From Crossaster papposus (Eukaryota > Echinodermata > Asteroidea > Velatida > Solasteridae), in assembly GCA_037893245.1 (NCBI GenBank), contig JBAIAA010000397.1:1-64000 (forward strand): a stretch of DNA of 64,000 nt, given 5' to 3'. A program made the translations under genes and the position numbers. Below, one piece after another: positions 33,551 to 49,815 of the stretch (position 1 is its first letter; the number at the start of each line of letters is the position of its first letter). The notes beneath the pieces are model-generated. The model had not been told where the DNA came from and did no database searches. It saw only the letters and a list, made by a program, of their open reading frames with translations.

Positions 33551-33688
33551 ACCACTTCTTGGAGTGTATAGAATGTGTTGAAATTAGGTGTAAACAAAGA
33601 CAGCCTGTGCTTATCGGTTCTGTTTATAGGCCTCCTTCAAGCTCTGTCGAATTTATGGGTAAACCTAGTTATATTCTTAATAGTGGCC
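33551..33688 (+). pseudogene. LINE D endonuclease fragment, part 1
   Basis: Translation from about 33553 gives an AP-endonuclease segment with the hallmark GSVYRPPSSSVEF (~33618-33656), ending where the palindromic element begins. The downstream continuation, including the GDF motif, lies 16.1 kb away at 49816, beyond the right target duplication. This shows that the large element inserted into LINE DNA. The joint is out of frame by one base, so the LINE was already decayed or an indel followed. Confidence 0.75.
33683..33688. repeat. Left 6-bp target-site duplication GTGGCC
   Basis: GTGGCC immediately precedes AGTAGTGC. The identical hexamer follows GCACTACT at 49810-49815. Confidence 0.85.
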
Positions 33689-33941
33689 AGTAGTGCATAT
33701 CGCTGGTACAGTCTATATGACGTCATCATTTTAGCCTCTCGACCAATCAGAACGCTGCATTTGAGCCTCATTAGCATAATTTGAGGAGCCAATTTGAGGA
33801 ACAGACGGGACCGTTCACATTCGTGTAGGAGGGGTGTTGATTCGCGTAAGCGAATGCAAATACAATACTAACAATAGATAATTGATTTAATCGTATGTAA
33901 AGAATGAGTTTCAATTTTTATGGATATTTTAGAAGAGACTG

Positions 33942-34081
33942 TTAGCGTCGCAGTAAAGAATCAACCATGAAATAAAATGTCACCGAGCTCGACGCACATC
34001 GTAATTGTGCAATCGCATGGGCCATTTTACGTGTACAGACATGACAACAACAATTAAGTGTATCGGTCGTGCTTGTGATCG
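33942..34081 (-). CDS. Left-arm copy, exon 2 of putative two-exon gene
   Basis: Inverted duplicate of 49417-49556. On the minus strand it follows a consensus acceptor (TTTAATTTCTGCAG at 34082-34095) and runs 140 bp to a stop at 33942. It encodes a short piece with a CCCHVC cysteine cluster and a serine-rich tail. It is separated from exon 1 (36818-36998) by the 2.3-kb element inserted in the intron. Whether it is expressed is unknown. Confidence 0.35.
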
Positions 34082-34506
34082 CTGCAGAAATTAAAGACGT
34101 ATTATATAACGGGGATCCTATGTAACAGTATTGAATATTGCTGGTACAATGTAAAAACACTCAACAGCCTACTCGCACGGTATTGCCCGATATTGTTTTA
34201 ACTGGCACATGATGTTCACGGTAAATTCTAGAGAGCTAATAATCCACACGTCCGTACAAGAGTGGGACAGGCCGGGCCGGGCCGGAGTATTGATCAGCCC
34301 ATGGAGGAACAAGAAGGAACATAATGGTTTGCCCACAAATGGTCGCACCGATATTGGTCATGACATTGACATGGCTTATCGGGAGAGAGACACCAGTCTC
34401 ACGAAAAGTATACTCTGCAGTGCTGCCAAAACCATTCAAGTAAAATTGTACGCAAAATACATGGTATCAATAATGCACGCGGTTGTAGAAAACACAGTAC
34501 TCACCA

Positions 34507-36810
34507 TAGTCTTTGGGCAAGACGTTGCTAAATTCGCAGCCACGAGAGGGCGCTTTCGCGACAAACCATCATCACTCGCCATCCTGTCCGTAACAACGTC
34601 TTTGGAATTACGTAAAAAAAATTACCAAAAACGGTAAAAAACTAGTGCGCATGCGCTATTTATGTATGTTAATGAAGGAAATTTGTTCTTCGCGCACGCG
34701 CACATACGACAGCTAGTGTACAATAGGTCAGGTAGCAAGTACCGAGATATACTCACACGAATCATCAGAAACTCGCCGGCACGGTTTTCTCCGTGTGCAC
34801 GGTGGGCTCCGAGATGGCAGAAGGAGCGGACAGGAAAGCGGACATCATGTTTATTTCTAGTGATTTGGATAAATTTAACCTTTATTATAAGTGCATTGAG
34901 GTAGGAATACATTCCTAATCTTACATGTACCTCAATTGCAAGTGTTATCAAAGAATTAAATTTTGAAAATGATTCACATGTATTTTGAATTTCATTTGAG
35001 GCCAAAAAGAATTAACAAACAGCACTCTTATTCTTAATGTCGCTGTTTGCTGCTTTGTATTAATATAAACTGAAACTCAATTAGAATGACTAAATTGGCA
35101 ACTGCAGTGTAAAGATAAAATGTGTCTAATACTAATTATAGTTTTCCCCTCTGAAAAATAGGCCATGTCCGAATTCCTTGGCTGCAGCTTAAATTGCATA
35201 AAAGTCTGTGGGAATATTTTAGTAAGAATTAATTGATGATTACCCTGAAGCTTGCTTAGCCCAGTAATATACCCAGCCCGATATGATGAGACCAAGGGAC
35301 TACCCTTAGACCACCATATACCACCATATACACTCTATACTTACCTAACGCCCCCCCCCCCCCTATTCCCTAAAAAACTACAAAGAATCATGAAAAAAAC
35401 AGAATATTCCGCAAGCACAATGGCGACCGGACCAGAAAGGACGGGGGGGGGGGGGGCAATTTTAAAATTATATGAAAAGGCACATAATAATATACGTAAG
35501 CAAAATTGTTTCCTTTGAGAAGTTGGGTTACTGATACCCCCTTCACATACACGGATTTTTCTTACGAGTCTTTACGGATCGCACAGATTCACAGATCGTT
35601 CATAGATCCTTACGATTTGGCCAGTTTTACGACTGATTTAAGTGTTTTTACGAGTTATATTACGGGCTATTTACGGTTTATTACGGATTATTACGAGTTA
35701 TTGCCATGTATTTACGAGTCCTCAGGATTTGTTGCCAAAAAATATATATATCCTGCAAATCTCAATGTACATGTACAATCATTCGTAAAGTATACGTATT
35801 TATTATTAAAGTACTCGTAACTACACGTAAAGTGCTCGTAATAACTCGTAACAATCCGTAAAGCCATCGTAACACGACCCGAATGAAATCGTTAACAACA
35901 CGTAAGCACTCGTAATAATCCGTAAACAAATCGTAAACTAACCGTAACAAATTGTTAAAAAAATTGTTACGAGTCATTTACGGATTTTTGCGAGCAGTTT
36001 ACGGATGGTTACGTGTTGTTGCGAGTGGTTTACGATACTTACGGATTGTTACAAGCTTTTTACGAGTTATTTACGGAAAACTCAAACCGTGGACAATCGT
36101 AAGATTTGTTTGTGTCTGCGAGTTGTTGCGAGTTGTGACGAATTATTTACGATACCAGCGAGTTATTTACGGATGCTTGCGATTGACTACGAGTTGGCGA
36201 TCCGTAAGGACTCGTAAAACAAATCCGTGTATGTGAAGGGTGTATAAAGATCCTAAAAAAAAATTTGAAAAATAAATTGCAAAGGTAAAATTCGTCCTGA
36301 ATTTATGACTAAAGAAATTCATGAAAATAAATATATTTTAAGGGGATCGTTGTCATTTTCAAAATACCAAACGGATTCTGCCTTTAAAACTTGTTGGCAA
36401 GAGATGACCCTAATAATAATTAATATGTACCGAAAAGTCTTCCATTTTCACGAATAACGTTGAACACGTTTGATGATAAAATGTGTACAGTATGTACATG
36501 TACATGTACATTTGTGTACAGTACACCATGGAGGAATATTCCTCCATGAGTACACGTATACATGTGTACACACACACGTACATGTACATCCAGATGCAAT
36601 GAGAAGTTGAGTCAGGGTGTTAGACCTATGCATATGTATGTTTATGCAAAGTACGTAATGTACGCTGCATTCATTAGGCTAAGCAGGTGCGTGCGCATAT
36701 CTCTACATCGACGTAATTCCAAAGACGTTGTTACGGACAGGATGGCGAGTGATGATGGTTTGTCGCGAAAGCGCCCTCTCGTGGCTGCGAATAGTCTTGC
36801 CCAAAGACTA
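34507..36810. mobile_element. 2.3-kb TIR element with 9-bp target duplication
   Basis: Ends TAGTCTTTGGGC...GCCCAAAGACTA, with TIRs of ~105 bp (both ends contain CGAGAGGGCGCTTTCGCG). The flanks are TACTCACCA at 34498-34506 and 36811-36819. The right arm of the palindrome holds the empty site with a single copy, in inverse orientation, at ~48985-48993. Nine-bp duplications are typical of Mutator-like elements (including Rehavkus), but no transposase is present and the family is inferred from that alone. Contents include a delta-like fragment (35264-35400), a G tract and a nested foldback MITE. Confidence 0.75.
35537..36242. mobile_element. Foldback MITE built of TTACGAGT / TTACGGAT words
   Basis: Terminal repeats CCCTTCACATACACGGAT occur at both ends in inverse orientation and are flanked by TA. 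The ~700-bp interior is composed almost entirely of degenerate 8-16 bp words TTACGAGT and TTACGGAT. They are forward at 35560-35710, inverted at 35815-35950, forward again at 35965-36190 and inverted at the right end. Open frames on both strands are by-products of this simple structure. Confidence 0.6.
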
Positions 36811-36817
36811 TACTCAC

Positions 36818-36998
36818 CAGCAAAACAATAATCAACACGATATTTCCGTTTATTTGCACCGTAATAATTATTGCGTAGTTTAGGATATCTTTCAAAACCG
36901 CCGTTCTTGTCGTACAATGGTGACAAAAGTGACATAATTACACAATAATGTGGACAAAAACATACCATTTTGCACGGTAAAGTTTCGTTGTCTGCCAT
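36818..36998 (-). CDS. Left-arm copy, exon 1 of putative two-exon gene
   Basis: Inverted duplicate of 48806-48986. It starts MADNETLPCKMVCFCPHYC on the minus strand and ends at a consensus splice donor, CTG|GTGAGTA. The 9-bp duplication of the 2.3-kb element (36811-36819) is exactly this donor sequence, so the donor is preserved next to the exon. Reading through without splicing enters the inserted TIR and stays open for a while, which is coincidental. Confidence 0.35.
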
Positions 36999-39040
36999 TT
37001 GTTGTTGTTAGTCGAACCATAGCTCCATGGTCTAACTAATCACTATGGTTAACCATGGAGGAAGGAATAGTCCTTGATCGAGCTTTTAATTGCTCCTGCA
37101 TTGTGACGAGTTTGTCGCTATGTGTTGTCCACGTACGTGTACACAACCTATTATTAACTGTTGGTTTAATCGTGCATGGTTCATTGGGTCTTTAGAATTT
37201 AGCGGGGGATCTCCACGCGTTATGTAACAGCGATGAGTCATTGAAGGGTGGTAAACATCCGGACTTGTCCGATTCTGTTCAGTCGTATGGTCTGGAATTC
37301 ACGGTAATTTTAAACGTCCCCGTAGTGCGCAATCAGTGTTTTGAGCGCAATTGTACATTGAAGGAACGTGAACCATTTACACATTTTTATTGTTCGTTTT
37401 ACTAATTTAGCTGTTCATTTGCTATTTCTCGCTCCTTTTGCCCATTTATTTATTTCGCGGCACCCTACAGTATGTGGTTTAGCCACTCCGCTACATAATA
37501 ATAGACGTGATAACGTCTCGTGTACAAACAAACACGACAAAGCTATTCATCATTAGCAAACTTCTATTTTATATAACCGGATGATATCGACTACAGGCCT
37601 TGTGGTTTACCGTTATATGCACATGTATATGTAAACAACAATAAGCAAGAGCCGCTGCAAGCAAAGTGATATCTTAATTTGTTATTCTGACGTCACCCGA
37701 CCACTATGCAAGGCCAAAGAAAGAAACTTGTACAAACACTCTGATTTTGGATTACCTTTTGACAGGAAAGGATGTTACTCCTAAACATTTTTTGGTATAC
37801 AATATACATTTACTTATATGTACACATACTTATACTTGGATTTGACCTAGTTCACCCTACATAGGACCCAATAAACAAATAGGGCCTACAAGAAACCAAA
37901 TTAAATAAAAACACCAAGAAAATATGGTGATTATCTACGAGAAGAAACTACGAGAAGAAATATTTACGTAAACAAATAAAAGCATAACGGCGAATACAAT
38001 AAATAGACAACGGGTGTCTAAAACCAGCCGGAACTCACTCAATTGGTCAACGGGCAATATACAGTTTCAAGTATTTTATTTTAATTCCACTTCGAATAAT
38101 ACAATAATTACATGATAATGATACGACTTAAACTGATCAAATAACGGATTAAAAGAAAACAATTACCGTCGTACGTAAACAACTTGTTCATTCTCTATAA
38201 CATAACGTCTTGCAATCAACTTTATTCACGGCGTCTTCAACTTCGCAGTCCATAAAAAGCAAACTCATTGAACAAAGAGAATGCCGACTTATGTTTTGTA
38301 AAAAGAGTAAACCCAAGTAACTTGTTTTCTTTTTCTCCCATGCGATGGTAGAGGTAAACAAATCTCGAGCTGTTCAGTTATACGTGTTGTTTTAGAAGAA
38401 ATCATTTCAATAGTTCATCGGAATTGCGTTTGTCGTCTTCAGATTTGTACAATGTCGTCCATGAAATTAAAAACAAAAACAAATTAAAGTGTGTTTGTAG
38501 GCCTAATTGCAATCGTCCGTCAATGAGAGATGTTTTTTGTCATATACATGTACATGCATTCTTTATATAAATAATTAGTTAGGGCATAATTTTAAATAAA
38601 TCTTGAAACTACTGGTAGATAAACGCTCAGTGAATGTATTTTGACCTTGATATGATTACAAAATATTTACGAACAGTCAAATGGTTATACGCGTAGAAAA
38701 TGCTACCATAATATAATTTATATACATTTACATTCGTGGACAAATTAAAAAATGCATCAATTTTTTTTCTCGTAAACTTACTAAGACCGTAATTTATACT
38801 ACACTAAAGATTCAGGTTAATTTAACAAATGTACACTCGGCTTTGAACTATTCTGCCATGTACAAAGCGCAACTTGCTTGTATATATTGTTTATTTTAGT
38901 TAGAAATGACTGCATGAGGTAAAAACAAAATGTACGATGCAGAAATAAAAACTTATGTACAAAAAACAACCTAAAAATCGGAATTATTGCCTTTATCTGA
39001 GAACCTGGTTTTGAGTGCGTAAGTGCGACACAATTATGGT
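36999..39040. other. Non-coding part of left arm
   Basis: AT-rich arm sequence with no supported gene. It is matched in inverse by 46766-48805. A 62-codon frame at 37368-37556 is mirrored at 48250-48438, but it opposes the direction of the other arm genes and has no recognisable domain. An imperfect inverted word pair around CCATGGTTAACCATAG lies just 5' of exon 1 (37005-37060). Confidence 0.5.
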
Positions 39041-39245
39041 ATTAGAACTTGAGTAACAAATTAGTAAAAAAGATCAACAAATGAGTAAATAGAGCAACAA
39101 ATGAGTAAATAGAGCAACAAATGAGTAAATAGAGCAGCAAATGAATAAACAATGAGTAAAATAGAGCAACAAATGAGTAAAAAGAGCAACAAATTAGTAA
39201 AAAGAGCAGCAAATGAGTCAAATGAGCAGCAAATAAGTAGAAGGG
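39041..39245. repeat. 20-bp tandem repeat (GAGTAAATAGAGCAACAAAT), left arm
   Basis: About nine imperfect 20-bp units, preceded by TATGGTATTAGAACTTGAGT. Followed at 39295-39330 by TTATATATTAAACGATTTCC and CATTCGGAGATTA. The same array plus adjoining sequence occurs beside the palindrome centre, so each copy of the zinc-finger gene is bracketed by inverted copies. Confidence 0.7.
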
Positions 39246-39941
39246 GCACACAAAGTGTAAAAGAAGCACAAACAGCAAGGAATTAGTAAAAATGGGTAAT
39301 TATATATTAAACGATTTCCTCCGTTCCTTGCCATTCGGAGATTAACCTTCAAATACTTCCACATTGCCACCGTGTCAATATAGGCCGGGGTCGCCATAGA
39401 ATTGGTTGTTTGTTTTGCCAATTATCACACAGAATACGTACGACTGATCCTTGCACTCGAGCAAGAGCCACGTAGTGATGTGTCGTTTCCTAACTTTTTT
39501 TTTGCGTTTACTTTTTAATTGTTATTATACATATTTTTTTATAATTATTTTGTTTGGCACTTTAGCAAATAATGGTAGCCGACAGCCCCTCTTAAAAGAG
39601 CGAGCATCTCCCTTCCTTCTCACTTCGTTTGCTCAAATACGCACCGAAAATGATCATCATGACTAAGTTTGACGTTTTGCCGAGTTGGTGACGTTTGATT
39701 TTATTCCCCAATATCATTTGCAACTTATATCGCTGTCCTCAATGTAACGTAAAAGTAGGAAATAACCATAATGGATTACTGTAAGAATGACTAACAGAGG
39801 TGACTCTTTGTATATTATTTTGTTTTTCTACCAAAAGAACAAGATTATTATTTTTAATACAGTAGTTTATTATTTTTAATACAGTAGATTCTCTGAAACT
39901 GTTAGTCTTTAATCATCAATGTCTTCCTCGTTATCTTCCTG
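39246..39941. other. 3' flank of left zinc-finger gene
   Basis: Contains CATTCGGAGATTAA-type sequence shared with the centre and an AT-rich stretch downstream of the gene, with a TATTTTTAATACAGTAG duplication at 39850-39885. No coding frame. Confidence 0.4.
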
Positions 39942-40601
39942 TTAATCGTGCTGGAACAGTCCGTTAAATTTGGCCGTGTGTTTAAGCATTACTCTGCTCA
40001 GGGCCTTGTTTATTTCCACGCCTTTGTTTACTTTTTCTTCTACATCTTCCACAATATCTTGATGCGTGTCATTATCTTTCAGATGTAGGAAACTTGACAA
40101 AAAATCCTCGTAGTTGTTGAAAAAAAAGATTCGCTTGACTGCCCAGAGGGTCTTCCTGCTGGCTTTTTCCACGGCTTGATCTTCATTCATACCCCGGTCG
40201 ACGTACTTTTCGTATTTGTTATTCAACATCTCCGTTGTGGATTCTTTGTCTTCTGCCAACCAGTCTTTATAGGCGGCATTGTCTTCCAACTCAGAACTAG
40301 ACTCGTCTTCATCAGATGATTCGTCATCATATTCTACCTCCGTTTCAGATTCCGAACCATCTTCTTCGGCATCTTCGTTTTCGTCCTGCGAAGATTCAGT
40401 TTCACTGTTTTTTATTTCCAAAACTTTCAATCTACGCTTTTTAAAATCGGGCTCGGAATTATCCACGTCAGAATTGTCCGCAAGATCATCGTCAACTTCA
40501 TTTATTTTAGATGCCCCTTAAGCATGTACATTTTCTGCATGCCTCCGTAGGTTATATCTCCGTCCAAAGCTTCTATCACACTGGTGACAAGCATGGTGCA
40601 T
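39942..40601 (-). pseudogene. C2H2 zinc-finger / acidic protein gene, left arm
   Basis: From the ATG at 40601 the minus strand encodes a single C2H2 finger within the first 26 residues (C-x2-C-x12-H-x4-H, with the linker-like RRYNLRRH). An in-frame TAA follows at 40518-40520. The same frame then continues without interruption to 39942: an acidic Ser/Glu/Asp tract with a basic KKRRLK patch, then a charged helical C-terminal region of ~110 residues. If the TAA were sense the product would be ~219 aa. Short proteins with one N-terminal C2H2 finger, an acidic middle and a helical tail are recurrent in invertebrate repeats (from memory, function unknown). The identical stop is in the right copy, so it predates the palindrome or spread by conversion. 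Confidence 0.65.
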
Positions 40602-40679
40602 GTTTAACTGCAGTAATTACATCCATGTCGAGTCCGTGAAGGGTAATCTCCGAATGGCAAGAAACGGAAGAATTCGTTT

Positions 40680-41100
40680 AATATATAACTACTCATTTGT
40701 TGCTCTTTTTACTCTTGTTTACTCATTTGTTGCCCTTTTTACTATCCTTTTACTCATTTGCTGCTCATTTACTACTCAATTGTTACTCTTTTGTACTCGT
40801 TTGTTGCTCTTTTTACTCTCCTTTTACTCATTTGTTTATAAGTATACGCAGTATGGTATTAGAACTTGAGTAACAAATGAATAAAAGGAGAGTAAAAAGA
40901 GCAACAAACGAGTACAAAAGAGTAACAATTGAGTAGTAAATGAGCAGCAAATGAGTAAAAGGAGAGTAAAAAGGGCAACAAATGAGTAAACAAGAGTAAA
41001 AAGAGCAACAAATGAGTAAACAAAGAGTAAAAAAAGAGTAAAAAGCGTAACAAATGAGTAAACAAGAGTAAAAAGAGCAACAAATGAGTAGTTATATATT
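40680..41100. repeat. Palindrome centre with inverted GAGTAAA-type tandem arrays
   Basis: Left of centre, ACTCATTTGTTGCTCTTTTT units (40690-40833) mirror GAGTAAAAAGAGCAACAAAT units on the right (40876-41095). The unpaired loop is roughly 40834-40875 and includes GTATGGTATTAGAACTTGAG, the sequence that also precedes the array at 39041. Arrays are 20-30 bp periodic and imperfect. Long leucine/phenylalanine-rich frames here are repeat translations. Confidence 0.75.
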
Positions 41101-41178
41101 AAACGAATTCTTCCGTTTCTTGCCATTCGGAGATTACCCTTCACGGACTCGACATGGATGTAATTACTGCAGTTAAAC

Positions 41179-41837
41179 ATGCACCATGCTTGTCACCAGT
41201 GTGATAGAAGCTTTGGACGGAGATATAACCTACGGAGGCATGCAGAAAATGTACATGCTTAAGGGGCATCTAAAATAAATGAAGTTGACGATGATCTTGC
41301 GGACAATTCTGACGTGGATAATTCCGAGCCCGATTTTAAAAAGCGTAGATTGAAAGTTTTGGAAATAAAAAACAGTGAAACTAAATCTTCGCAGGACGAA
41401 AACGAAGATGCCGAAGAAGATGCTTCGGAATCTGAAACGGAGGTAGAATATGATGACGAATCATCTGATGAAGACGAGTCTAGTTCTGAGTTGGAAGACA
41501 ATGCCGCCTATAAAGACTGGTTGGCAGAAGACAAAGAATCCACAACGGAGATGTTGAATAACAAATACGAAAAGTACGTCGACCGGGGTATGAATGAAGA
41601 TCAAGCCGTGGAAAAAGCCAGCAGGAAGACCCTCTGGGCAGTCAAGCGAATCTTTTTTTCAACAACTACGAGGATTTTTTGTCAAGTTTCCTACATCTGA
41701 AAGATAATGACACGCATCAAGATATTGTGGAAGATGTAGAAGAAAAAGTAAACAAAGGCGTGGAAATAAACAAGGCCCTGAGCAGAGTAATGCTTAAACA
41801 CACGGCCAAATTTAACGGACTGTTCCAGCAAGATTAA
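41179..41837 (+). pseudogene. C2H2 zinc-finger / acidic protein gene, right arm
   Basis: Inverted duplicate of 39942-40601. The ATG is at 41179, the C2H2 finger at codons 5-26 and the shared TAA at 41260-41262. The acidic frame runs from 41263. A one-base loss in a T run (seven T at 41653-41659 against eight in the left copy) shifts the frame, so it terminates at ~41700. The remaining C-terminal coding sequence continues out of frame to the old stop at 41835-41837. A few substitutions distinguish the copies (for example Glu/Lys and Gly/Ala in the acidic tract). Confidence 0.65.
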
Positions 41838-42488
41838 CAGGAAGATAACGAGGAAGACATTGATGATTAAAGACTAATAGTTTCAGAGAATCTACTGTAT
41901 TAAAAATAATAAACTACTGTATTAAAAATAATAATCTTGTTCTTTTGGTAGAAAAACAAAATAATATACAAAGAGTCACCTCTGTTAGTCATTCTTACAG
42001 TAATCCATTATGGTTATTTCCTACATTTACGTTATAGTCCGGGAGCTTATGACACGAAATTAAGTCCCGTAGGCACCGAATGATTAGAACATGCCACCTA
42101 TCTAGATACCTAAATCAGACCCTCAGGAATAAGAAAAAACATGTTGGCAAAATGTTAAGTGTGGCAGAGGGCGGCCATCTTAGATTTCAAAATGGCCGCC
42201 ATTTTTAGCCTCTTTTTTGCCTAAATCAACGTTTAAATGTCATATGGAATCAATCTTTGAGGCTGTAAACCCCCTATTGTTTATGTCAAAGGTTGAAACT
42301 TTACAATTTGTATTTGCAGGAAAGAAAACATGAATGGCTGCCATCTTGCTTTTCAAAATGGCTGCACTGTTTTATTGTTGATGAATATGTTTTCCTTTCG
42401 ATGTCTCAAGAATTGTATGTGGCCAAAAGTATCTATAATTAACAAATAATTGTAGCTGTAAGTTGTACACATGCAACATGTGTAATTG

Positions 42489-43800
42489 GACAGAAGTTAT
42501 GTTCGCTGTCCCTCGTATCGACGAGACACTATATGCGCTGGTGGGTGCAGGGTGCAGAGTGGTTTTCCACTCTCGATTTAGCGTCTGTGTATTGGCAGGT
42601 TGACCTCGATGAGGATGCCAGCCAGAAGTCAACCTTTGTAGTGCGGAACGGTTTATACAGGTGGCGATGCATGCCCTTTGGTCTTTGCAACGCCCCTGCT
42701 ACCTTTGAAAGGGTGATGGAGAAGGTGATGGCAGGTCGTCAGTGGGACATCCTGCTGATATACCTGGACGATGTCATTGTGTTTGGCAAGACTGTGAAAG
42801 AAGGAATTGAACGACTACGAGTCGTCTTCTGCAGGTTGAGGTGACTTCACCGTTGCATGCGCTGACTGAAAAGTCGCGTGAGTTCCAGTGGACAGATGCC
42901 TGCCAACATGCATTTGTTGGGTTAAAGCAGAGACTACAGACAGCACCGGTGTTGGCATACCCCGTTCCTGATAGTGACTACATCTTAGATACAGATGCTA
43001 GTGGAGATGGGATTGGGGCAGTTTTGTCTCAGATCCATGACGGGGAAGAGAAGGTCCTCGACTTTGCAAGCCGTAAACTCAACAAGGCAGAGAGGAACTA
43101 CTGTGTTACTGGGAGAGAACTTCTGGCGGAAGTTGTCTACCTCAGGAAGTTTAGACAGTACTTGTATAGTCAGAAGGTGATACTCTAAACCGATCATGCT
43201 GCTTTTAGCTGGTTGCTTAATTTTAAGGATCCCGAGGGTCAGCTTGCCAGGTGGTTGGAAGTGATCAGCGAGTACGATTTGACGATTCAACACAGACCTG
43301 GGCGGAAGCATGGAAATGCTGATGGGTTGTCCCAGAATGCCTGCAAACAGTGTGGTCGTGCTGACGCTGATGAAGCGCCAGAGACAGTTGGGGCTGCGAA
43401 TAAGGCCAAGGTGACAACGACCAGTGAGGTTGACGATGGTCGCCATGAGGTTGACTCTGACGTGCTGATCCCAGAGGCAAGGGTTAGGGGCATTTTTGCT
43501 CAACCACACTTGCCTAAGGATGCAGTCAAAGAGGGTCAACTTGGTAACGGAAGTATTGGTTGGATGATTAGGTCAAAGGAGTCGGGCACAGTCGGCCCAG
43601 TTTAGAGACTGTGTCAGCCTCTGGTCCTCTTGTGATCAGTTGGAGGTGCTTGGGAGTCCGACGATGGGAAGTCGGTGAGGTTGCGACTACTACTTCCTGG
43701 GAGATTTAGAGAGGTCGTGCATGGTAGCCGGACGAGTGACCATACAAAGCATAGAAATTCAGCTTCCACTGGCATTCCTAAAAAATACCAAAATTCATAA
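42489..43800 (+). pseudogene. Ty3/gypsy reverse transcriptase-RNase H fragment
   Basis: RT is recognised from TLDLASVYWQV through CMPFGLCNAPATFERVM to LIYLDD (catalytic YLDD at 42761-42772). About 90 residues of RT connection are then deleted, and RNase H resumes at 42841 (ILDTDASGDGIGAVLSQ, then ASRKLNKAERNY). A stop at 43186-43188 replaces the residue before TDHAAFSWLL. The tail includes HRPGRKHGNADGLS and the pre-integrase linker. A one-base frameshift sits near 42540. No LTR was found at either side. Confidence 0.88.
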
Positions 43801-44059
43801 CGAGTAACAGATCATAATACAATATACACTGCATCCAATGCCAGAGCTGCAATCGAGCCACTCACATGTCACTAACAAATCACTCACAAATCACTTCGTC
43901 AAAGTTCATCAACAGCTCGCGAGTCGACCAAAAATGAATGATGCGTGACCGACTTGCAGCGACCCGCGACCAGAACACTGATATACAACACTACAAAGAG
44001 ACGATAAACACGACATGTATAACAAATTAATGATGAACCAGTTATTAAACAATCCTAAG

Positions 44060-44632
44060 ATATGCACCAGCAATTACCTCTTGACACACGTATTGAAAAG
44101 GTGGATGGCATTTTGAACAAATTAATTTCTAGTGCGACAGAGTGAAATGGGTGGAACACAAAGGAGGATGCCAGATATGTTGAATTTAAAATGATTATTC
44201 AATGGGTGTGAGGAGTCATGCATAATTTTGTTAACTTTCAACAAAACCCGATGCTCAAACAAGGAAACAATTGAGGGAAGATTCGAATTAATTATACGTT
44301 GGGCAATCTTCCTGGGTCTTTCTAACTTATTGATGTTTTCTTTTGACAAGTTACCAAAGTTACAGACAAGACAACAAGTAAGAATACTCTGAATCAAGGA
44401 CTGATAAAAGAGAATTAAAAACCTAATGTCAACGCACAATTCCTTCAATTTCCTCAGGAAATATAATCTTTGATTTGCTTTTCCTGCAACACTTTTACAG
44501 TTGGTCGTCCATGCTAGTTTACTATCAATCACAGTACCCAAATACTTGTACTCAGACAATTGCTGAATAGGTTGATCATGAATAACTAAAGGCTCATGAA
44601 CTACTGCTGACCGACGGAAATCAAAATCAAAA
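44060..44632 (-). pseudogene. LINE RT C-terminal fragment inserted in gypsy remnant
   Basis: Minus-strand translation from ~44632 gives EYKYLGTVIDSKLAW, KANQRLYFLRKL, CVDIRFLILFYQSLIQSIL and the terminal VPPISLCRTRN block, typical of the C-terminal part of CR1/Rex-like LINE ORF2. It lacks the RT core. It separates the gypsy RNase H and integrase portions and so was inserted between them. Confidence 0.75.
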
Positions 44633-44639
44633 ATTCATC

Positions 44640-45640
44640 AGATGTTGCGAGCTGTGTGGGAAGAGGATATCTCCTGCGAAGAGGAGAGTTTCCCCGATCC
44701 AACAGTATTTGGTGGGCGAGCCCATGGAGAGAGTGGCTGTGGACTTGCTGGGGCCACTCCCCGGCCCCCGGAGTGACAGTGGCAACGTCTGGATCATGGT
44801 ATTTGGTTACTACTGCTCCAAATGGATGGAGGCATACGCTCTGCCTGATGCTAAGGCAGAGACGGTAGCGAACAAGTTTGTCAGTGAGTTTGTCTGTCGG
44901 TTTGGCATTCCCTTGGAATTGCATTCCGATCAGGAGACAAACTTTAAGTCGGCGGTGTTTGGCGGGATGTGTAAGGTCCTGGGAACCATTAACATGGTTG
45001 CTGTGATGATTGATCCGAGGAGGAGACAGCGTGACTGGGACGAGTGTTTACCGTACGCATGTTTTGCTTATCGGTGCACTCCCCAAGAGTCCACTGGCGG
45101 GTCTCCAAACATGATGATGTTTGTAAGGGAGGCGAGGCTTCAAAATGATTTGCTGGTTGAGGGTCCTACAGTAGAGGACGCAACAGCGACAGATTTTGCC
45201 CAGAGGTTACGGCAGAATCTGCAAGAGGCACATGGCAGGGCCAGAGAGTGCCTGAAGCAGAGTGCCAAAAACCAGAAGCGAAATTACGATCACAGGGTAC
45301 ATGGCGAAAGCCTAAAGGAAGGCCAGTTTGCATGGCTGTACAAGCACGAGGGCGAGGAAGAAGGGAAGAAGGCTAGAACTTCGATGGGTAGGACCATACT
45401 TGGTGGTCAACAGACTCTCTGATGTGACCTACCGGATTTAGCTGAAGCCTGGGAGTAGGGTGGTTGTAGTTCACGGCGACCGACTGAAGCCATACACCGG
45501 CGAGAATTTTGAGACGTGGGGGTACCAGCCCAAGATAGTGGAGGAACCCTTGACCGAAGAACAAGATGAAGTTCCTAAGACCATGCCTAGTAACCTAATT
45601 GTAGAGTTAGGTGTAGGAGTAGAGGTTGAGCAAGGATAAC
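44640..45640 (+). pseudogene. Ty3/gypsy integrase fragment
   Basis: The HHCC end (CELCGRR-like), then EPMERVAVDLLGPLP with the first catalytic Asp, W(M)EAYALPDAKAETVA, and HSDQETNF with the second Asp. The block that should carry the catalytic Glu (SDGQVER-type) is deleted. Text passes directly to DWDECLPYACFAYR and the GPF/Y-type C-terminal region (GDRLKPYTGENF) to a stop near 45637. Frameshifted near 45390. Enzymatically dead. Confidence 0.85.
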
Positions 45641-46554
45641 GCCATGGCCACGAACAAGTTGGTTCTTACCCCCTCCCTTCACACCCTTAATACAAATCGG
45701 TATGTAGGTCTAAATGCATACATTGTCATATACTGTACCAAGATACGCTTAGGATACACTACTATTATGACATACTGGTGACCATTTTTGAATAAATAAT
45801 GCTAAAAACCAAATATGACTATACTTTGATCACATCAGATGTATGTTGAACTGCTTCCTTATCATGGCAAATGTAGGGTTTGGCTCCAAAATCAGCTTTG
45901 CACGGCATTCAGAGCCAGAGTTATGGCATAATGAAGATGTATATAGCGGCCATTTTGAAATCCAAGATGGCCGCCCTCTGCCAAAACTTCAAAATTGCCA
46001 ACATGTTTTTTTGTGCTCTCTAGTACCTAAATAACATGACTAGGTGGGTGGGATCTTCTAATCATTCATTTCCTACGGATCACCATAAGCTCCCTGACTA
46101 TTACATTGAGGACAGCGATATAAGTTGCAAATGATATTTGGGAATAAAATCAAACGTCACCAACTCGGCAAAACGTCAAACTTAGTCATGATGATCATTT
46201 TCGGTGCGTATTTGAGCAAACGAAGTGAGAAGGAAGGGAGATGCTCGCTCTTTTAAGAGGGGCTGTCGGCTACCATTATTTGCTAAAGTGCCAAACAAAA
46301 TAATTATAAAAAAATATGTATAATAACAATTAAAAAGTTAACGCAAAAAAAAAGGTTAGGAAACGACACATCACTACGTGGCTCTTGCTCGAGTGCAAAG
46401 ATCAGTCGTACGTATTCTGTGTGATAATTGGCAAAACAAACAACCAATTCTATGGCGACCCCGGCCTATATTGACACGGTGGCAATGTGGAAGTATTTGA
46501 AGGTTAATCTCCGAATGGCAAGGAACGGAGGAAATCGTTTAATATATAATTACC

Positions 46555-46765
46555 CATTTTTACTAATTCCTTGCTGTTTGTGCTTCTTTTACACTTTGTG
46601 TGCCCCTTCTACTTATTTGCTGCTCATTTGACTCATTTGCTGCTCTTTTTACTCATTTGTTGCTCTATTTTACTCATTGTTTACTCATTTGCTGCTCTAT
46701 TTACTCATTTGTTGCTCTATTTAGTCATTTGTTGATCTTTTTTACTAATTTGTTACTCAAGTTCT
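46555..46765. repeat. 20-bp tandem repeat, right arm (inverse of 39041-39245)
   Basis: ACTCATTTGCTGCTCTATTT-type units ending in ACTCAAGTTCTAATACCATA. It is the mirror of the left-arm array. Confidence 0.7.
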
Positions 46766-48805
46766 AATACCATAATTGTGTCGCACTTACGCACTCAAAA
46801 CCAGGTTCTCAGATAAAGGCAATAATTCCGATTTTTAGGTTGTTTTTTGTACATAAGTTTTTATTTCTGCATCGTACATTTTGTTTTTACCTCATGCAGT
46901 CATTTCTAACTAAAATAAACAATATATACAAGCAAGTTGCGCTTTGTACATGGCAGAATAGTTCAAAGCCGAGTGTACATTTGTTAAATTAACCTGAATC
47001 TTTAGTGTAGTATAAATTACGGTCTAGTGAGTTTACGAGAAAAATAATTGATGCATTTTTTAATTTGTCCACGAATGTAAATGTATATAAATTATATTAT
47101 GGTAGCATTTTCTACGCGTATAACCATTTGACTGTTCGTAAATATTTTGTAATCATATCAAGGTCAAAATACATTCACTGAGCGTTTATCTACCAGTAGT
47201 TTCAAGATTTATTTAAAATTATGCCCTAACTAATTATTTATATAAAGAATGCATGTACATGTATATGACAAAAAACATCTCTCATTGACGGACGATTGCA
47301 ATTAGGCCTACAAACACACTTTAATTTGTTTTTGTTTTTAATTTCATGGACGACATTGTACAAATCTGAAGACGACAAACGCAATTCCGATGAACTATTG
47401 AAATGATTTCTTCTAAAACAACACGTATAACTGAACAGCTCGAGATTTGTTTACCTCTACCATCGCATGGGAGAAAAAGAAAACAAGTTACTTGGGTTTA
47501 CTCTTTTTACAAAACATAAGTCGGCATTCTCTTTGTTCAATGAGTTTGCTTTTTATGGACTGCGAAGTTGAAGACGCCGTGAATAAAGTTGATTGCAAGA
47601 CGTTATGTTATAGAGAATGAACAAGTTGTTTACGTACGACGGTAATTGTTTTCTTTTAATCCGTTATTTGATCAGTTTAAGTCGTATCATTATCATGTAA
47701 TTATTGTATTATTCGAAGTGGAATTAAAATAAAATACTTGAAACTGTATTGCCCGTTGACCAATTGAGTGAGTTCCGGCTGGTTTTAGACACCCGTTGTC
47801 TATTTATTGTATTCGCCGTTATGCTTTTATTTGTTTACGTAAATATTTCTTCTCGTAGTTTCTTCTCGTAGATAATCACCATATTTTCTTGGTGTTTTTA
47901 TTTAATTTGGTTTCTTGTAGGCCCTATTTGTTTATTGGGTCCTATGTAGGGTGAACTAGGTCAAATCCAAGTATAAGTATGTGTACATATAAGTAAATGT
48001 ATATTGTATACCAAAAAATGTTTAGGAGTAACATCCTTTCCTGTCAAAAGGTAATCCAAAATCAGAGTGTTTGTACAAGTTTCTTTCTTTGGCCTTGCAT
48101 AGTGGTCGGGTGACGTCAGAATAACAAATTAAGATATCACTTTGCTTGCAGCGGCTCTTGCTTATTGTTGTTTACATATACATGTGCATATAACGGTAAA
48201 CCACAAGGCCTGTAGTCGATATCATCCGGTTATATAAAATAGAAGTTTGCTAATGATGAATAGCTTTGTCGTGTTTGTTTGTACACGAGACGTTATCACG
48301 TCTATTATTATGTAGCGGAGTGGCTAAACCACATACTGTAGGGTGCCGCGAAATAAATAAATGGGCAAAAGGAGCGAGAAATAGCAAATGAACAGCTAAA
48401 TTAGTAAAACGAACAATACAAATGTGTAAATGGTTCACGTTCCTTCAATGTACAATTGCGCTCAAAACACTGATTGCGCACTACGGGGACGTTTAAAATT
48501 ACCGTGAATTCCAGACCATACGACTGAACAGAATCGGACAAGTCCGGATGTTTACCACCCTTCAATGACTCATCGCTGTTACATAACGCGTGGAGATCCC
48601 CCGCTAAATTCTAAAGACCCAATGAACCATGCACGATTAAACCAACAGTTAATAATAGGTTGTGTACACGTACGTGGACAACACATAGCGACAAACTCGT
48701 CACAATACAGGAGCAATTAAGCTCGATCAAGGACTATTCCTTCCTCCATGGTTAACCATAGTGATTAGTTAGACCATGGAGCTATGGTTCGACTAACAAC
48801 AACAA
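46766..48805. other. Non-coding part of right arm
   Basis: Mirror of 36999-39040 with very few differences. No supported gene. The ~50 bp before the ATG at 48806 form imperfect inverted words (CCATGGTTAACCATAG and GACCATGGAGCTATGG, 48746-48790), a possible regulatory hairpin or binding site. Confidence 0.5.
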
Positions 48806-49556
48806 ATGGCAGACAACGAAACTTTACCGTGCAAAATGGTATGTTTTTGTCCACATTATTGTGTAATTATGTCACTTTTGTCACCATTGTACGACAAGAA
48901 CGGCGGTTTTGAAAGATATCCTAAACTACGCAATAATTATTACGGTGCAAATAAACGGAAATATCGTGTTGATTATTGTTTTGCTGGTGAGTACTGTGTT
49001 TTCTACAACCGCGTGCATGATTGATACCATGTATTTTGCGTACAATTTTACTTGAATGGTTTTGGCAGCACTGCAGAGTATACTTTTCGTGAGACTGGTG
49101 TCTCTCTCCCGATAAGCCATGTCAATGTCATGACCAATATCGGTGCGACCATTTGTGGGCAAACCATTATGTTCCTTCTTGTTCCTCCATGGGCTGATCA
49201 ATACTCCGGCCCGGCCCGGCCTGTCCCACTCTTGTACGGACGTGTGGATTATTAGCTCTCTAGAATTTACCGTGAACATCATGTGCCAGTTAAAACAATA
49301 TCGGGCAATACCGTGCGAGTAGGCTGTTTACTGGTGAGTGTTTTTACATTGTACCAGCAATATTCAATACTGTTACATGGGATCCCCGTTATATAATACG
49401 TCTTTAATTTCTGCAGCGATCACAAGCACGACCGATACACTTAATTGTTGTTGTCATGTCTGTACACGTAAAATGGCCCATGCGATTGCACAATTACGAT
49501 GTGCGTCGAGCTCGGTGACATTTTATTTCATGGTTGATTCTTTACTGCGACGCTAA
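48806..49556 (+). CDS. Putative two-exon cysteine-rich gene, right arm
   Basis: Exon 1 is 48806-48986: an ATG in good context (AACAACAAATGG), 60 codons, starting MADNETLPCKMVCFCPHYC and ending with a lysine/arginine/tyrosine-rich stretch. A consensus donor (CTG|GTGAGTA) follows. A consensus acceptor (TTTAATTTCTGCAG) ends at 49416. Joining leaves the frame open through exon 2 (49417-49556, CCCHVC cluster) to a TAA, giving a product of ~107 residues. No known domain was recognised. Intact splice sites and frames in both arms support a gene, but I have no expression evidence. A second donor-like CTG|GTGAGTG at ~49330 is absent from the left arm because of a 7-bp deletion. Confidence 0.35.
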
Positions 49557-49809
49557 CAGTCTCTTCTAAAATATCCATAAAAATTGAAACTCATTCTTTA
49601 CATACGATTAAATCAATTATCTATTGTTAGTATTGTATTTGCATTCGCTTACGCGAATCAACACCCCTCCTACACGAATGGGAACGGTCCCGTCTGTTCC
49701 TCAAATTGGCTCCTCAAATTATGCTAATGAGGCTCAAATGCAGCGTTCTGATTGGTCGAGAGGCTAAAATGATGACGTCATATCGACTGTACCAGCGATA
49801 TGCACTACT

Positions 49810-49815
49810 GTGGCC
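49810..49815. repeat. Right 6-bp target-site duplication GTGGCC
   Basis: Identical to 33683-33688 and directly abuts the terminal CACTACT. Confidence 0.85.

Follow-up and report, generated by a model that had tools for sequence, protein, structure and literature searches.

Polinton/Maverick elements and the snapback genomes of linear DNA viruses are the described systems closest to the locus reported here. In vertebrate Mavericks the commonest end motif is (AGT)2//(ACT)2, target-site duplications are 6 bp long, the inverted repeats of intact elements span 46-1,447 bp, and either (AGT)2//(ACT)2 or (AG)3//(CT)3 serves as the criterion for a Polinton/Maverick end (PMC8097293). Polintons are all said to encode DNA polymerase B (PolB) and a retrovirus-like integrase, and integrated Polinton-like viruses without an integrase of their own may use those of resident Polintons (PMC4642659). 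Linear DNA viruses are known to produce snapback, or defective interfering, genomes as by-products when they replicate; those of adeno-associated virus (AAV) are described as self-complementary half-genomes, symmetric or looped, with head-to-head genes and with proteins provided in trans (PMC8235507). Here, we describe an element from the sea star Crossaster papposus, located in positions 1 to 64,000 of contig JBAIAA010000397.1 (assembly GCA_037893245.1), a stretch of 64,000 nucleotides referred to below as the window. The window element is fully palindromic and non-autonomous, and it probably belongs to a Polinton-derived, PolB-dependent family in which a snapback form became heritable.

The element is bounded by perfect copies of GTGGCC (33683-33688 and 49810-49815), both of its ends are intact, and its AGTAGT...ACTACT termini are also those of its relatives, which confirmed the duplication and the Polinton-type ends claimed by a first-pass annotation of the sequence. 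The near-perfect palindrome that it had described, with the arms making up the whole element, was likewise borne out: two head-to-head copies of a half-element flank a short loop and each ends in an authentic terminus, which is the organization of a snapback genome (Table 1). In a block-wise alignment, the 4.8-kb arms differ at 20 of 4,801 aligned bases (0.42%), with nine gap openings comprising 126 letters; they are near-identical, as had been noted, but somewhat closer to each other than the suggested difference of about 1%. The limits of the 35-nt loop were set by a 19-of-20 match rule, BLAST alone leaving 113 bp unpaired. Seven small open reading frames (ORFs) of the element gave nothing above Pfam cut-offs, and neither a PolB match nor any other Polinton core gene was found within it.

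The window element is a genuine insertion. When its flanks were joined at a single GTGGCC, the resulting sequence had matches spanning the join at each of the 40 places that were scored out of 465 first-look candidates, with 88-94% identity and a difference in length of at most four letters. These empty-site matches are numerous because the insertion target is itself one copy of an abundant repeat. Chance is also excluded, since the 25-nt terminus gave 48 matches with up to two mismatches in the 1.02-Gb genome searched (1,841 contigs), and its reversed control gave none.

Relatives of the element are designated here by C-numbers, which stand for the contigs of the same host genome assembly that carry them. 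As the gene and repeat searches scored the best candidates only, the counts obtained from them are lower bounds. The first 819 bp of the element gave at least 43 genomic matches (best 40 of 145 candidates scored), and a looser terminus pattern gave 63 (reversed control, 0), among which there were 22 inward-facing pairs, 2.2-77.8 kb long. These pairs are places and not all of them independent insertions: C343a, C343b and C291 have common flanks, and a single insertion may be represented twice, on the contigs C19 and C468, because their PolB matches have equal frame length and the same two stops. Flanks were compared for 12 of the pairs, the remaining 10 being paired by position alone. The genome search called for by the first-pass annotation, for loci sharing the terminus and 6-bp duplications, succeeded: a perfect duplication was present at 10 of the 12 flank-compared pairs, corresponding to 8 of 10 independent insertions, with five of six letters matching at C123 and no duplication at C185. 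PolB matches fall in six of the 22 pairs (C19, C117, C468, C532, C697 and C1012; best 62 of 213 candidates), and a zinc-finger ORF in 11, ten of them by genome search (best 40 of 321 candidates) and C123a by ORF comparison. Among the best candidates scored, and hence provisionally, five pairs contain neither gene (C245, C344, C395, C506 and C833) and none contains both; visual inspection placed the other PolB and zinc-finger matches outside the pairs. At C854 (323745-397269), two termini 73.5 kb apart are flanked by a perfect 6-bp duplication and enclose a pair of zinc-finger ORFs; this is either an insert-swollen element or an unusually large one. C123 holds two family elements, one ending and the next starting 216 bp apart (231199 and 231416 of the contig).

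The PolB-carrying relatives C532 and C697, which were read whole, consist of a PolB core between 3.5-kb inverted repeats. Pfam searches identified PolB (PF03175) with E 5.7e-37 in C697, where it occupies two overlapping frames, and with E 3.2e-12 in C532, where it is in pieces and about 1 kb shorter than in C697. The N-terminal PolB ORF of C697 shows C2H2 fingers (Pfam). Of six core ORFs scanned, three were PF03175 or C2H2 pieces of PolB, one was a Gypsy polyprotein and two had no match, the latter being taken as PolB pieces by their position; a further C532 frame of 121 amino acids lay outside the scan, as did those on the strand opposite to PolB and Gypsy. No protease was seen among these ORFs, and no search aimed at it was made. 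The nearest named PolB proteins include that of Acanthaster planci, beside those of Mytilus and other molluscs. Phage records yielded one distant match, solved structures none at E 0.01, and a search of viral contigs with the PolB alignment confirmed no relatives.

Regarding the other Polinton genes, the Pox_A32 ATPase gave 18 genomic matches (all 74 candidates scored), none of them inside the 22 terminus pairs, and a too-divergent ATPase would escape this search. Fifteen of the 18 have identical score and open frame, and these places probably belong to a classic Polinton family that was active recently in this host. On C89, two blocks 46.9 kb apart (1806934-1819833 and 1853818-1866717) each contain two PolB matches that face each other; they may represent a different PolB lineage, in the form of an element that was duplicated. 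A stretch of C117 that was considered as an integrase module was rejected, as by its frames it is mostly a Gypsy-like insertion.

These results bear on the earlier claim of a Polinton derivative, which is supported by the ends, the 6-bp duplication and the PF03175 PolB of relatives sharing the 25-nt terminus, but not by the full defining gene set. Relatives encoding both PolB and integrase, which the first-pass annotation had proposed to look for, were found for PolB alone, no integrase being seen in the cores read. Because the integrase is unseen and the ATPase matches lie elsewhere, the family was not filed as a bona fide Polinton, and its Polinton membership is unproven. Compared with Polinton/Maverick elements in general, the family shares the 6-bp duplication, the (AGT)2//(ACT)2 ends, inverted repeats and, in same-terminus relatives, PF03175 PolB. 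It differs in that no integrase was seen in the cores read, no ATPase match fell inside the 22 pairs and the window element has no core genes, and also in its inverted repeats, which measure 3.5 kb in C532 and C697 or take up the whole element in the window, beyond the vertebrate range given above. The PolB is 50% identical over 92% to that of a coral adintovirus (Rhodactis). Adintoviruses are defined, in the portion of the source available, by a hexon, a PolB with an OTU-like N-terminus and a chromodomain integrase (PMC11071296), whereas the N-terminal ORF here has C2H2 fingers, and hexon and integrase were not seen, no search aimed at the hexon having been made. Bidnaviruses, as excerpted, have a Polinton-derived PolB with inverted terminal repeats (PMC4061559), but are encapsidated single-stranded DNA viruses with parvovirus-like genes, none of which were seen in this family.

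The gene carried by the palindrome arms was not found in the PolB pieces examined. In relatives, the unbroken gene is an open frame of 242 codons; its product has a single C2H2 finger and an acidic stretch, and a helical C-terminal domain is predicted. The window element is considered non-autonomous because the gene is disrupted in both arms, by almost the same changes. Thus, of the accessory genes in duplicate on a non-autonomous element that had been claimed, the duplication and the lack of autonomy hold, but the plural does not, one gene being recognised per arm. That the same stop occurs in both copies suggests that the broken copy was still mobilised. Among the best 40 of 321 genomic matches to the gene, 18 form nine head-to-head pairs less than 2.5 kb apart and 22 are single. 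The protein has 42 relatives at E <=0.1, 41-71% identical, 38 of them on contigs shorter than 3 kb and one with a named source, Patiria miniata; this conservation argues for function. The protein may help in replication or in end binding. Its predicted fold (mean predicted local distance difference test score, pLDDT, 63.7) had no Foldseek match at E <=0.001 in PDB or BFVD, and a search of viral contigs confirmed no relatives of the protein.

Nine zinc-finger elements were examined at full length, in pieces (the window element, C690, C585, C355, C123a, C185, C343a, C343b and C291), and seven of them, representing five independent insertions, are palindromic through the centre. The loop core is identical, in either orientation, in the six palindromes covered by the comparison (window, C123, C690, C185, C291 and C343b, the C343a loop being left out), the window copy being short of a few letters. 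Because this core is common to all six, a single founding event is indicated for the zinc-finger lineage, and the inspected palindromes are best explained as descendants of one palindrome that kept transposing as a palindrome; independent origins within the lineage were rejected on the same evidence. C585 and C355 have arms of 4.6 and 4.2 kb and a single ORF copy. The left arm of C585 stops directly at the minisatellite that borders the centre in other elements, so that C585 looks like a centre deletion, and the same is inferred for C355 from alignment only.

A different loop was found in a palindrome of the PolB-carrying kind. In C419, which was read in parts only, each arm contains the PolB gene, the two copies lying head to head on either side of a 50-nt loop unrelated to that of the zinc-finger lineage. 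Its inner arms show 2 mismatches in 2,608 aligned bases over 2.6 kb, four of five pairs of mirrored outer probes are identical, the fifth lying beyond the element, and its right end carries AGTAGTGC.

The history of the arms was examined with a tree built from 30 terminal pieces, 27 of them different; for nine of ten insertions, an exclusive clade was formed by the insertion's own arms, the exception being C185. This count includes insertions with both ends and takes C343a, C343b and C291 as one, as well as C697 and C1439, the flank of C1439 being that of C697 read backwards. Clades were starred for the window element, C123, C854, C697 and the C343 group and had bootstrap values of 86-93 for C690, C585 and C355; the arms of C532 are identical. 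Comparison of C343a with C291, which are copies of a duplicated insertion, revealed 16 inner sites common by side and none by element, with four private changes and 182 gapped columns set aside. In this one insertion, the arms drift apart after insertion with no later conversion. Grouping by insertion, as read from the tree, is what a repeat shows when each cycle copies it from a single template, as in long terminal repeats (LTRs), and it agrees with protein-primed copying via a panhandle or a hairpin intermediate without separating the two.

The heritable snapback form that we favour would have arisen as follows. PolB, presumably by protein priming, would copy a linear element from the primed end and displace one strand, whose 3' end would fold back at an internal site and prime synthesis as far as the authentic terminus. 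If the hairpin so formed were then copied through, the product would be a palindrome with a short loop scar at its centre and a correct end on both sides. Such a palindrome would have all that this polymerase requires of a substrate, and likewise all that is required by the integrase making the 6-bp duplications, the latter supplied in trans, perhaps by resident Polintons, and it would for that reason persist as a heritable snapback genome. The likeness to AAV snapback forms lies in self-complementarity and in head-to-head gene copies around a loop; in contrast, AAV is a parvovirus using Rep and not PolB, and its snapback forms are, in the text available, particles of a virus population and not repeatedly transposed genomic elements. 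A broader proposal is more tentative and in our opinion possible without being probable: a class of transposons with the self-complementary snapback form of a protein-primed DNA element as the inherited and transposing unit, in which integrase-less, PolB-only elements would repeatedly give rise to genome-long palindromes that outnumber their parents and evolve as LTR elements do, with arms identical at birth.

Several observations weigh against a heritable snapback form. Apart from Gypsy inserts, no integrase was seen in the ORFs scanned in C532 and C697 or in 9.9 kb of C117, with no dedicated genome search made, and no capsid was seen among the core ORFs scanned, with no search aimed at it. 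Grouping by insertion is expected of any panhandle-copied inverted repeat and is no proof of fold-back alone. C185 lacks a duplication and its arms are not sisters, as could be found in a recombinant, which it may be, and the right arm of C355 is equally close to C585 and to its own left arm (0.35% each). The zinc-finger ORF copies in this genome are too similar, with mixed ratios, to give a clear signal in the ratio of nonsynonymous to synonymous substitutions (dN/dS). Additionally, only two founding events were seen, and one of them, C419, may have come about by rearrangement of the chromosome instead of by transposition, because its left end is about 11 nt short of the terminus and it has no 6-bp duplication.

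Amongst other explanations, the palindrome could have arisen from an ordinary Polinton-type element with long inverted repeats by spreading of these repeats, the core having been lost by deletion or panhandle recombination and the repeats having grown until they met, with no fold-back priming. In the PolB relatives the inverted repeats are already 3.5 kb long, and the homology of the palindrome arms to these elements continues beyond the C697 repeat almost as far as the PolB stop, the position of which was inferred from the open frame. However, one short loop core in six palindromes and another loop in C419 fit single priming events better, and the arms carry a gene absent from the PolB pieces examined, so that we regard repeat spreading as unlikely. 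A composite origin, in which two head-to-head copies or a chromosomal inverted duplication gained outer ends and were then mobilised as a unit, seems to us less plausible still. It would accommodate both the defective end and missing duplication of C419 and the two neighbouring elements of C123, but no terminus sequence lies at the palindrome centres that were printed or measured, and the arms group by insertion.

The arms of Y-chromosome palindromes are kept alike by gene conversion, and conversion after insertion, instead of identity at birth, could be invoked here too, particularly for C585, whose arms show 3 mismatches in 4,609. The side-specific sites of C343a and C291, although from one insertion only, largely reject such conversion, and it is very improbable. 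An assembly or library artefact, for which it could be said that the contiguity of the palindrome is known from the assembly alone, is scarcely credible and was rejected given the perfect duplications with differing flanks at 8 of 10 independent insertions and the empty-site match of the joined flanks, beside arms that differ from each other, with differences that are side-specific in duplicated copies, and nested inserts that each occur in one arm only.

Two later inserts interrupt the arms of the window element. The right arm aligns straight through the site of the first (34507-36810), which is missing there; the inverted ends of this insert begin TAGTCTTTGGGC, and from the size of its duplication (9 bp) we take it to be Mutator-like. 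The second (42035-46100) has an integrase match under the Pfam cut-off and 17-letter inverted ends, TAGTC...GACTA, of which 16 of 17 letters match by eye, and may be a retroelement that sits within a DNA transposon. Elsewhere in the window, about 29 kb (3196-31862) are rich in related direct repeats, mostly 86-97% identical and 0.4-4.3 kb long.

Table 1. Features of the palindromic element and its later inserts, in positions of the window.
Feature	Positions	Strand	Basis or remark
Whole palindromic element, ends AGTAGTGC / GCACTACT	33689..49809	.	16,121 bp
Left target-site duplication GTGGCC	33683..33688	.	joined flanks match at 40/40 scored places
Left arm, outer part	33689..34506	+	814/818 aligned bases identical to 48985-49809 reversed
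Left arm, inner part	36811..40836	+	arm alignment
Asymmetric central loop, 35 nt	40837..40871	.	core common to other inspected zinc-finger palindromes
Right arm, inner part	40872..42034	-	arm alignment
Right arm, outer part	46101..49809	-	arm alignment
Right target-site duplication GTGGCC	49810..49815	.	flank comparison
Broken zinc-finger/acidic ORF, outward from centre	39945..40677	-	stop at codon 52, 7 inserted letters
Mirror copy, broken zinc-finger/acidic ORF	41103..41834	+	stop at codon 52, 6 inserted letters
Later insert in left arm, 2.3 kb, inverted ends (TAGTCTTTGGGCAAGAC)	34507..36810	.	read by eye; 9-bp duplication TACTCACCA
Later insert in right arm, 4.1 kb, Gypsy-like reverse transcriptase and RNase H pieces	42035..46100	+	TTA duplicated, by eye

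No description of palindromic Polintons was found in the titles and abstract starts of papers considered from the openly licensed literature (CC0, CC BY, CC BY-SA), which is weak evidence of novelty. By analogy with the AAV by-products, an integrated genome appears to have recorded snapback forms as a successful transposon lineage. If the arms are born identical, their divergence would date each insertion, as with LTRs, and the loop scars would provide a genomic record of Polinton-type DNA copying. Altogether, the family raises the question of how an element with a polymerase, and with no integrase in sight, still produces 6-bp duplications.

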